Origin: Methylacidimicrobium tartarophylax
GTDB taxonomy: Bacteria; Verrucomicrobiota; Verrucomicrobiia; Methylacidiphilales; Methylacidiphilaceae
Direction of reading: 5' to 3'
Length of the DNA stretch: 35,212 nucleotides
NCBI RefSeq assembly: GCF_902143375.2
Contig: NZ_CABFVA020000016.1
Span: 1-35,212 of the forward strand
The notes under the pieces were generated by a model that was not told the origin of the DNA, ran no database searches, and saw only the letters and a list, made by a program, of their open reading frames with translations. Shown here piece by piece: positions 18,132-21,645 of the stretch. Position numbers and translations under genes: made by a program. Positions within the stretch are counted from its first letter, which is position 1. Each line of letters starts with the position of its first letter.

Positions 18132-18153
18132 GCCGCGGATCCAGCGGCTTTTT
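18132..18153 (+). terminator. Intrinsic terminator after murB
   Basis: GCCGC (18132-18136) pairs with GCGGC (18144-18148) around a 7-nt loop and is followed by five T. It lies 21 bp after the murB stop. The second arm and T-run also form a block shared with the minus-strand hairpin near 21579 (see the inverted repeat). Confidence 0.65.
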
Positions 18154-18207
18154 CGATGCAAAAGCCTCGCTAGGACAGCATTTCCATTCAGGAACCAGCG
18201 GGATAAG

Positions 18208-18243
18208 AGATTGCGGCCTGCGAGCTTCGTTTGCCAGTTCTCT
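18208..18243 (+). repeat. 36-bp inverted repeat, left copy
   Basis: This 36-bp intergenic sequence (beginning AGATTGCGGCCTGCGAGC) recurs on the minus strand at 21478-21513 with a single mismatch. The two copies point inward and flank the oxidase cluster. In both, a cagcggcttttt block begins exactly 66 nt before the repeat, while the bases between are dissimilar. Confidence 0.9.
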
Positions 18244-18261
18244 CGCAGAAATCCAATAGAT

Positions 18262-18624
18262 TCATCTTCCGTCTTCTCCAGCCCTCTTTCCGTGCCCTGG
18301 GATGATTCGTATTGCCCTATCGATATCGCGCTTCTCGGCGGCATCGACTTTTTCTTCATCCGCCTCTTCGAGGAACTCCGCGTAGGCCGGCGGGGGCTTC
18401 CGAGACCGCCGATAGAGCGTCCCGATCAGCAGCGCCACTCCTCCCAGCGGAATCAACGCGGTCGCCACCAGCGTCCAAGCTGCAGCGTCTCCGGGCTCAT
18501 GCCCAAGCGCAGGGACATTCAGCGCCGACCAATAGAAGGCATGCCCAATCGCGAGGAACCCAAGCACCCCGAGGAAGAGGAGACCTCCGCCCACGGACAG
18601 GAGCTTGTTGATTCGCGATTTCAT
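18262..18624 (-). CDS. Small membrane protein of the oxidase cluster (unknown)
   Basis: 120 aa from the ATG at 18624, which overlaps the preceding stop as ATGA; an upstream extension in the open frame is not needed. Two hydrophobic segments (about 9-28 and 50-70) flank a short loop, and a charged C-terminal tail (about 72-120, with EFLEEADEEKVDAAEKRDIDRA) follows. I do not recognise a family. Its position as last gene of the ctaD cluster suggests an accessory or assembly protein of cytochrome oxidase, by context only. Confidence 0.7.
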   Translation of the reverse strand: MKSRINKLLSVGGGLLFLGVLGFLAIGHAFYWSALNVPALGHEPGDAAAWTLVATALIPLGGVALLIGTLYRRSRKPPPAYAEFLEEADEEKVDAAEKRDIDRAIRIIPGHGKRAGEDGR

Positions 18625-18833
18625 TCGATGAGTCCCAATCGGCGAGTCTTTCGCAGGAACCAAGCCCCGTAAACGATTACCAAGAGCGCGGCCGCAAAAG
18701 AGCCCCCGCCCAACCAGAAAAGCAATCCCCCTTGATGATCGTAGTAACCTTTCAGCAACCAACCTCCCAGCCCGAGAAAAAGACAGGTAACGACGGTCAC
18801 GAAGACGAGATGAAACTGTCGCAACGACATCAT
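18621..18833 (-). CDS. Small two-helix membrane protein (unknown)
   Basis: 70 aa from the ATG at 18833; a second ATG follows at 18830 with AGG 6 nt upstream. It has two hydrophobic segments (about 8-27 and 37-60) and a basic end (FLRKTRRLGLIE). It starts a few bases after the subunit IV remnant and overlaps the next gene by 4 bp. No family was recognised; context suggests a minor oxidase subunit. Confidence 0.7.
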   Translation of the reverse strand: MMSLRQFHLVFVTVVTCLFLGLGGWLLKGYYDHQGGLLFWLGGGSFAAALLVIVYGAWFLRKTRRLGLIE

Positions 18834-18837
18834 CAAC

Positions 18838-19032
18838 CTACTTTACGGAGCTGAGTTGATCCATATAGCACCAGAGGAACGCCACAAGTAACACCACCAT
18901 CGAATCAAGCGCAATGCCCACGAGGTAATGGACGGTCTTCTTTTCCGAAAAAAAGTACATCAGGATTCCCAAGGCCACGATCGCCTGCGTTCCGGCGACG
19001 AGTAGCCCGATCCCGATGTTTCCTCCGTCAAA
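18838..19032 (-). pseudogene. Cytochrome c oxidase subunit IV remnant (5' end missing)
   Basis: About 64 codons resemble the C-terminal half of bacterial COX4/CyoD-type proteins: GIGLLVAGTQAIVALGILMYFFSEKKTVHYLVG and one further helix. The N-terminal part with the first helix is absent. The frame stays open upstream to 19149, but those codons overlap the subunit III remnant in another frame and are not family-like. No start codon lies close to the homologous part, although GGAGGA does. It is probably untranslated or non-functional, unless it starts within the upstream open frame. Confidence 0.6.
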
Positions 19033-19282
19033 AGCGGCCCGAGAGATCCATGCGATTGGCCAGATGCTCCGCGTTGGTTCGGTAGAGCTTGGCACCCAGC
19101 CTCCAGAAGAAGCCGAGCACCAACGATCCTTCCAGGATATGGAGGCCATGAAGCCCCGTCATCGTAAAATAGGTCGCGAGGTAGATGCTGTACCGCGGCG
19201 TGAAATTCGACCACCATTGGATATCCCTCTTTGGGATTTCTAGCACCTTTTCCTCGCCCGCAACTGGGCAGAGGAAAACCAT
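19028..19282 (-). pseudogene. Cytochrome c oxidase subunit III remnant (both ends missing)
   Basis: 84 codons from an ATG 17 bp after ctaD. TPRYSIYLATYFTMTGLHGLHILEG is the hallmark helix of subunit III, followed by NRMDLSGRF, where the family continues with Trp-His and a last helix. Here a TGA follows at once. The first helices (roughly 100 residues) are also absent: ctaD ends just upstream and no other frame carries them. A normal subunit III is about 200 aa or more. It runs directly into the subunit IV remnant in a different frame. Confidence 0.65.
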
Positions 19283-19299
19283 CTCTTGATCGTTTTCCC

Positions 19300-21183
19300 T
19301 TATGCAGAGGACAGTTTTGGTTCCGCGACTCTGCTTTCCTCCCGCTCCCACTGCGGCAGAAAATCACGAGAGGCTCCAGGAACGCTATATTCGTAGGCAT
19401 CACGATAGACCTCCACGGGATGGAGGAAGTTCCCGTGTCCCGGAGGAGTGGGGGTGGCCCACTCAAGAGTAGTCGCTTGCCACGGATTATCCGATTCGAC
19501 CTTCTTGCCTCGCCATATGCTCCAAAAGAAATTGATGATAAATGGAATCTGTCCAATCGCAAGAATCCAGGCCGAGATGGACATCACATGGTTGAGCCAG
19601 AGCACGGGCTGCGCCATCTGCCAACCGGCTCCTCCATCGAACCAGCGACGATGCACTCCGGTGTACCCTTGGATGAGCATGGGGAAGAAGATCCCGTTGA
19701 AGAAGATGATCGTCATCCAGAAATGCACCTTTCCCCAAAACTCGTTCAGCATCCGCCCGGTTGCCTTGGGGAACCAGTAGTACATCCCGGCAAAAAGCCC
19801 CATGAGCGCGGCTGGGGCCATCATGTAGTGGAAGTGGCCGATCACATAGTAGGTGTCATGGAGCACCATGTCCGAAGCGGTATACCCGAGTGGCAGGCCG
19901 GTCAGGCCGCCGATTCCGAACATCGGCAGCCAGGCAAGGGCGAAGAGCATGGGAACCGAAAAGCGGATCGATCCCCCCCACAAAGAAAGAAGGAGTACCG
20001 TTCCCAGAATAATCGACGGAATCGAAATCATTATGGTGAAAACCTGAAAGAAGATGCTGACGCTCTGTCCCATGCCGGTCATGTACATGTGATGGGCCCA
20101 GACAAGCAGCGAAATGAAGCCGATCGCGAGCATCGAGTAGACGAACGTCTTGTAGCTCCACAAGGGCTTCCGCGTGTTGTTCGCGAACACCTCACCCACG
20201 ATCCCCATGGACGGCAGAATCGTCACATAGACCTCGGGATGACCGAGAAACCAGAAAAGATGCTGCCAGAGTAGGGCCGAGCCGCCTCCGCTCGCCGGCC
20301 AGGGGCGGCCTCCGACGACAAGACCGTCAGGCGAGAAGAAACTGGTTCCGAAAAGCCGGTCCATCAGCTGCATGATCGCGGCCGATTCGAGCGGCGGAAA
20401 GGCTAGGAGCAAGAGAAAAGCCGTGACCAGCTCCGCCCAGACAAAGACGGGCAGTCGCATCCACCCTAGGCCGGGGGCACGAAGCTGAATGATCGTGGCA
20501 ATGATATTGATCGAGCCGAGAAGTGATCCGGTAATGTTGAAGACCATGCCGATCAGCCAAAGAGTCTGCCCGTTGAGAATCGGTTCGAAGCCCATTCCCG
20601 TGTCGGCGATATCGGCCAGGGGAGGATAGGAGGTCCAACCCGACTTCGCCGCTCCGCCGGGAACCAGGAAGCCCACGAGCATGATCACCACACCCACGAA
20701 GAAGCTCCAAAAGCTCGCCATGTTGAGGCGGGGAAAGGCCATGTCCGGCGCGCCAAGCTGCAAGGGGACGATGAAGTTGCCGAAGCCGGCGAAGAGCGCG
20801 GGAACGACCGCCATGAAGATCATCATCGTTCCATGCATGGCGCCGAAGGAGTTGTAGAGATTCGGGGTCATCACGCCACCGGGAGCCATGTTGGCGCCGA
20901 AGACCGCGGTCAAGAGCGGACCAATCACCGGCACGGGCTTCCCAGGGTAGGAGAGCTGCCAGCGCATCACCACCATCAGACCAAAGGCGAAGAGGGTGAC
21001 GAACAAGGCGGTGATCATATACTGGATGCCGATCACCTTGTGATCGGTGGAAAACACATATCGCCTCCACCACGAAAGTTCGATCTGGTGCTCGTGATGG
21101 CCAGACTCCCGCGTGGTGACCGTGCTTCCGACGCCTTGCGACCCTCCCATCGGATTTCCGTGCTCGTTCTTTTCCTGCGGCAT
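19300..21183 (-). CDS. ctaD: Cytochrome c oxidase subunit I (aa3/caa3 type)
   Basis: 627 aa, apparently intact. Ligands visible: His117 (heme a, GAMHGT), HPEVY (about 315-319, CuB His315, Glu317 and cross-linked Tyr319), His364-His365 (WAHHMY) and GHFHY (His450, His452 for hemes a3 and a). Asp147 (GAPDMAF) is at the D-channel entrance and Lys345 fits the K-channel, as in A-type oxidases. The C-terminus has the usual NPWQATTLEWATPTPPGHGNF. It is the catalytic subunit reducing O2 to water in the inner membrane. AAGAAAGGAG precedes the ATG. No subunit II (CuA) gene is adjacent, and subunits III and IV look broken. Confidence 0.96.
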   Translation of the reverse strand: MPQEKNEHGNPMGGSQGVGSTVTTRESGHHEHQIELSWWRRYVFSTDHKVIGIQYMITALFVTLFAFGLMVVMRWQLSYPGKPVPVIGPLLTAVFGANMAPGGVMTPNLYNSFGAMHGTMMIFMAVVPALFAGFGNFIVPLQLGAPDMAFPRLNMASFWSFFVGVVIMLVGFLVPGGAAKSGWTSYPPLADIADTGMGFEPILNGQTLWLIGMVFNITGSLLGSINIIATIIQLRAPGLGWMRLPVFVWAELVTAFLLLLAFPPLESAAIMQLMDRLFGTSFFSPDGLVVGGRPWPASGGGSALLWQHLFWFLGHPEVYVTILPSMGIVGEVFANNTRKPLWSYKTFVYSMLAIGFISLLVWAHHMYMTGMGQSVSIFFQVFTIMISIPSIILGTVLLLSLWGGSIRFSVPMLFALAWLPMFGIGGLTGLPLGYTASDMVLHDTYYVIGHFHYMMAPAALMGLFAGMYYWFPKATGRMLNEFWGKVHFWMTIIFFNGIFFPMLIQGYTGVHRRWFDGGAGWQMAQPVLWLNHVMSISAWILAIGQIPFIINFFWSIWRGKKVESDNPWQATTLEWATPTPPGHGNFLHPVEVYRDAYEYSVPGASRDFLPQWEREESRVAEPKLSSA

Positions 21184-21477
21184 CTCGGCTCCTTTCTTAA
21201 GGGTGTTTAGTGTTTAGACCGCTACATCCTCCCCTTCCCACCTTACGGAACAATCAACCCCATCTCTTATGAACGCAAGCAGGGCGAAAGGTAAAAAGGC
21301 CGCAAAAGCGCACAGCAAAGAGCGCCTTTCCCTGGTATAAGCGAGCTAACAAGACGCAATCTGCCCTTTGGGGGTAAGCAGCAAAAAGCAGCGACTTTGT
21401 ACGATCAACTTGAGCCGCTCCACCCGCTGTACGGCGCTCCATCTAATCCCACTGGTCCCGATCGTTGAGCGCGTTCA

Positions 21478-21513
21478 AGAGAACTGGCAATCGAAGCTCG
21501 CAGGCCGCAATCT
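21478..21513 (-). repeat. 36-bp inverted repeat, right copy
   Basis: Minus-strand copy of the sequence at 18208-18243, 35 of 36 bases identical. It is in the leader region of ctaD, 66 nt after a matching hairpin/T-run block (minus strand from 21579). Confidence 0.9.
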
Positions 21514-21565
21514 TCGTGTCTAGCCATTCTTTCCCTCCCTGACGCAGAATCGCTTATCCGTTCAT

Positions 21566-21593
21566 AAAAAAAGCCGCTGACCGTGAATCAGCG
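21566..21593 (-). terminator. Intrinsic terminator (minus strand)
   Basis: CGCTGA and TCAGCG form a perfect 6-bp stem around a 7-nt loop, followed by GC and seven T when read on the minus strand. No minus-strand gene ends here: the OsmC gene lies upstream on the other strand. It would stop antisense transcription coming from the fmdB-like gene, or act as a leader terminator before ctaD. Confidence 0.7.
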
Positions 21594-21645
21594 AGGCAAC
21601 GGATCCAGCTTGTAATCGTCACAGGGATGAGGTAGTCGGTTTCTC

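Follow-up and report, generated by a model that had tools for sequence, protein, structure and literature searches.

Nearly all isolates of verrucomicrobial methanotrophs encode three terminal oxidases, of the cbb3, aa3, and ba3 types, with a second ba3-type enzyme in two strains (PMC8498564). The genome considered here, that of Methylacidimicrobium tartarophylax, is an incomplete assembly of 2.33 Mb in 137 contigs, and the window, i.e. the whole stretch of 35,212 nucleotides that was analysed, is one of these contigs (C16). Another contig of the same genome (C65) carries an intact aa3-type operon with the full set of ctaC, ctaD, ctaE, and ctaF, in which genes that look like those of Alternative Complex III (ACIII) and cytochrome c genes are followed by ctaD, ctaE (266 amino acids), ctaF (103 amino acids), orf71, orf108, one more short open reading frame (ORF), and then ctaC, which encodes the CuA domain. 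Five further species in the genus share the arrangement from ctaD through orf108; the second genus shows the order ctaD-ctaE-ctaF-orf71, with ctaC again downstream in the one locus that was read far enough. COX2 (PF00116) domains occur in this genome only at C65 and at a ba3-type locus (C50). Besides the aa3 operon, all 12 genomes searched, from two genera, carry another ctaD at a locus of its own (split over two contigs in one draft genome), and no ctaC, ctaE, or ctaF was found beside this lone gene in the loci read. In the present genome, the lone ctaD lies at positions 15695-17518 of contig C34 (L011:7696-9519), and its counterparts are in loci L163-L167 and L182-L186; within the genus, the gene after it encodes a small membrane protein that shares the PPPAYAEFL motif of orf108.

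The cluster in the window is a diverged copy of the middle of the C65 operon, at 87% nucleotide identity. The homologous stretch (18259..21210, minus strand) starts just before ctaD and ends just past orf108, and it aligns with C65 in three blocks of 87%, 88%, and 82% DNA identity, separated by gaps that are exactly the missing parts. It therefore shares with the A-type (aa3/caa3) operon beside the ACIII-like genes the order ctaD-ctaE-ctaF-orf71-orf108, with 87% DNA identity in ctaD, but differs from it in having destroyed ctaE and ctaF genes and in lacking ctaC as well as the upstream part of the native operon, with its ACIII-like and cytochrome c genes. The cluster has no ctaC (CuA subunit II) because its homology to the operon ends at 18259, before that gene is reached. 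An earlier reading of the window, made from its sequence only, had pointed to a missing subunit II upstream; the gene is indeed missing from the cluster, but its absence from the upstream side is normal and carries no information because ctaC is located downstream in the intact operon. As a complete aa3-type cytochrome c oxidase locus, the cluster thus falls short in the CuA subunit II gene and in a full-length subunit III. The two small membrane-protein genes of the operon are both open on the minus strand, orf71 at 18621..18830 and orf108, with its PPPAYAEFL motif, at 18262..18624, the 3' end of the latter being unlike that of the C65 copy.

The ctaD copy (19300..21183, minus strand) is an open frame of 627 codons whose product is 88% identical in amino acids to that of C65 ctaD and matches COX1 (PF00115) over its full length (E=4e-130, 435 bits, profile positions 2-433 of 436). 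The ligand motifs HGT, GHPEVY, HHMY, and HDTYYVIGHFHY are present and line up with those of the Paracoccus enzyme (1ar1_A; HGT/HGV, GHPEVY, HHMY, HDTYYV..HFHY), so that the haem- and CuB-binding histidines as well as the His-Tyr pair of an A-type subunit I are all in place, in line with the intact subunit I that the sequence-only reading had described. The dN/dS of the window ctaD branch is 0.19 (0.13-0.28), against 0.06-0.11 for functional copies, i.e. elevated but far from the value near 1 that, like a broken frame, would mark a pseudogene. Replacements affect 35 of its 533 invariant sites (6.6%). At sites where every other operon or lone copy has the same residue, the gene carries 18 replacements, mostly conservative and none in a ligand motif. 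These data show that the gene is under weakened purifying selection and yet constrained, although this constraint could predate its arrival at the site or predate the deletions described below. In a simple two-phase model, about 12% of the ctaD branch passed without constraint, compared with 43% for the ctaE and 69% for the ctaF remnant, the intervals being wide.

The ctaE (COX3) pseudogene (19028..19282, minus strand) consists of 84 codons that align with codons 166-248 of the intact gene. Relative to the paralogue, 492 bp have been lost, joining the start codon in frame to codon 166, and a TGA follows codon 248, where relatives have Trp-His. The ctaF (COX4-like) remnant (18838..19026, minus strand) has no start, lies in a different frame from the ctaE remnant, and aligns from 19026 to 18844 with ctaF codons 39-99. 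At the junction between the two, TGAC stands in place of 198 bp of C65, a net loss of 194 bp that both creates the ctaE stop and takes away the ctaF start. The alignment shows both breaks to be real deletions. A central fragment of subunit III ending before Trp-His, a C-terminal part of subunit IV in another frame, and deletions in 5' cox3 and across the cox3/cox4 boundary had all been recognised beforehand, and comparison with the paralogue bears each of them out. A frameshift or recoding event linking ctaE to ctaF was considered and ruled out, since the intervening 198 nucleotides, which belong to both genes, have been lost.

Loss of constraint accompanies the truncation of both genes. In Pfam, the ctaE remnant scores just under the cut-off (23.4 versus 23.8 bits; 21.0 bits in another search). 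Invariant sites are replaced at 16 of 79 positions (20%) in ctaE (14 of 75 without the first six codons) and at 11 of 51 (22%) in ctaF, both above the ctaD rate (Fisher p = 0.0002 and 0.001, respectively), and the same contrast was sought in other lineages and found in none. The branch dN/dS values of the remnants, 0.44 (0.18-2.8) for ctaE and 0.72 (0.26-2.7) for ctaF, have wide intervals owing to the short sequences but compare with 0.02 and 0.09, respectively, between functional copies. The two genes are thus truncated and have lost the constraint seen in their functional orthologues, from which we infer that the short ORFs are non-functional; relatives carrying the same short ORFs, which would have spoken against decay, were looked for, and no relative has them. 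The proposal that the locus is in decay while another, complete oxidase is encoded elsewhere is supported by both the pseudogene-like replacement in the remnants and the intact ctaD-ctaE-ctaF...ctaC operon on C65. The alternative proposal of an odd minimal enzyme finds no support as far as the short ORFs are concerned; with ctaD still constrained, however, the cluster may supply an orphan subunit I.

The surroundings of the cluster point to mobile-element activity. Six further species of the genus have murB about 90 bp from an OsmC-like gene, whereas here the distance is about 3.5 kb, and the island is found in this one species only. The best empty site is that of the nearest relative (G004), which can be aligned up to window position 18133 on one side and from 21599 on the other, delimiting an insertion of 18134..21598 with a 10-bp repeat, CGGATCCAGC, at both borders; that the cluster is an insertion could not be seen in the sequence-only reading. 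At the left border lies a relic corresponding to the 5' portion of a DruA-family (PF14236) gene (18143..18257, plus strand; 76-77% identity to G004:C138:2086-2200 and G004:C15:83-197), and at the right border a relic of the same gene in the opposite orientation (21361..21579, minus strand). The assignment comes from the copy in the nearest relative, which matches DruA PF14236 (E=4e-14); a Pfam search with the short frames of the relics themselves gave no match. Next to the right relic is an insertion sequence (IS) end (21275..21356), full copies of which encode a DDE_Tnp_1_4 transposase and are multi-copy in the genus. The two relics have in common a 36-nucleotide inverted repeat (18208-18243 and 21478-21513). 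This repeat was considered as a multicopy element of its own and set aside, as a search of 40 genomes with up to 3 mismatches allowed found it nowhere but at this site; more diverged copies of the repeat unit are present in the nearest relative. The inverted relics of one mobile gene flanking the island, the IS end, the short border repeat, and the empty site in relatives are scars like those of a composite transposon, but the island contains no intact transposase and no defined element ends. For this reason, whereas the placement of the cluster between murB and the OsmC-like gene is directly seen, the agency of a mobile element is something we infer from the scars. In the nearest relative, a broken copy of this DruA-family gene directly adjoins an IS1595-type transposase gene (G004:C138, L160:1748-3282). 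A literature search on DruA genes as mobile elements returned nothing useful.

Taken together, our analyses make it very probable that the cluster is a transposon-scarred partial copy of the operon, in which ctaE and ctaF have been deleted to pseudogenes and ctaD is still constrained. A partial caa3/aa3 operon copy (ctaD-ctaE-ctaF-orf71-orf108) lies between murB and the OsmC-like gene, where mobile-element activity would have put it, with the IS end and the DruA-family gene relics still flanking the island; two deletions destroyed ctaE and ctaF, leaving the short ORFs, and ctaD stayed open under weakened purifying selection. The suggestion of a collapsed or chimeric contig is very improbable: an assembly in 137 contigs leaves room for such an artefact, but the copy differs in 12-18% of its DNA from C65, the only similar copy in the genome, and both borders adjoin conserved genes, murB and the OsmC-like gene, in the order and orientation usual in the six relatives, and we reject it on these grounds. 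How the copy was acquired is a separate matter, and horizontal acquisition from a related species outside the sample, possibly of a fragment that was by then damaged in part, competes with duplication rather than with decay. In the tree, the window copy branches beside the C65 gene and that of the nearest relative; its synonymous distance to C65 (0.435) exceeds that of the species split between C65 and the nearest relative (0.238), which speaks for an unsampled donor, as do the mobile-element borders and the empty site in the nearest relative. Against it, the assembly of that relative is only 83% complete, the GC content of the copy does not stand out, and, while a placement of the copy outside G005 is rejected (AU p = 0.002), the tests leave standing two placements within the C65/G004 pair (AU p = 0.34 and 0.21). 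Horizontal acquisition thus comes somewhat short of an even chance, and both a transfer from an unsampled relative and an older duplicate that was later moved are possible origins.

Decay of ctaE and ctaF is also compatible with a reduced working unit, in which ctaD, orf71, and orf108 are kept, ctaE and ctaF are dispensable, and the partners come from C65. The dN/dS interval of ctaD, which excludes 1, argues for such a unit, as do the replacement rates of orf71 and orf108, which are no different from that of ctaD, whereas those of ctaE and ctaF differ. The lone ctaD also gives a precedent for an orphan subunit I: like the window cluster, its loci pair a subunit I gene that lacks its ctaC, ctaE, and ctaF partners with one for a small PPPAYAEFL membrane protein, but they are kept across species, are strongly constrained (dN/dS 0.04-0.08 in the genus), and form a separate clade (75% amino acid identity), whereas the window copy is a species-specific insertion. 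This single-species occurrence, a ctaD dN/dS about twice that of functional copies, the 18 replacements at otherwise invariant sites, and the absence of the native operon's upstream portion weigh against a reduced unit, which we consider conceivable but rather doubtful. That the island is shrinking to ctaD, orf71, and orf108 with borrowed partners, independently repeating the older lone-ctaD arrangement of the members sampled in both methanotroph genera, appears unlikely. Within the preferred reading of a partial copy in decay, a ctaD merely released recently and a subunit I using the CuA subunit II and subunit III in trans from C65 are about equally plausible, and continued function of the gene would accordingly stand at about even odds.

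These results remove a candidate minimal oxidase: the cluster is an ordinary decaying duplicate, a mobile-element-associated fragment whose main subunit alone still seems preserved. Since the lone ctaD is conserved in both methanotroph genera searched, this subunit I may nonetheless be an orphan that borrows its partners in trans, a possible but unproven role. A conserved subunit I gene without partners also implies that counts of terminal oxidases based on ctaD alone are too high. Decay of ctaD occurs a second, separate time in the genus, in the extra ctaD of another species (G001:C108, L117:342-2159), which contains a single in-frame TAG and lacks a recognisable ctaE downstream. In a wider contig search, all matches listed were at or below 68% identity. 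The canonical K-channel lysine is absent from the window COX1, which has SIPSIILGTVLLLSLWGG where Paracoccus has AVPTGIKVFSWIATMWGG; this is a feature of the clade and not of decay, because the lysine is also lacking from the copies on C65 and C34 and from many relatives. The region (window 19900-20100, about residues 386-404) reads SIPSVxILTxLxxSLWGG instead, and the lysine is likewise missing in many relatives labelled Verrucomicrobia, Acidobacteria, Omnitrophota, and Neomarinimicrobiota (loci L020-L060).
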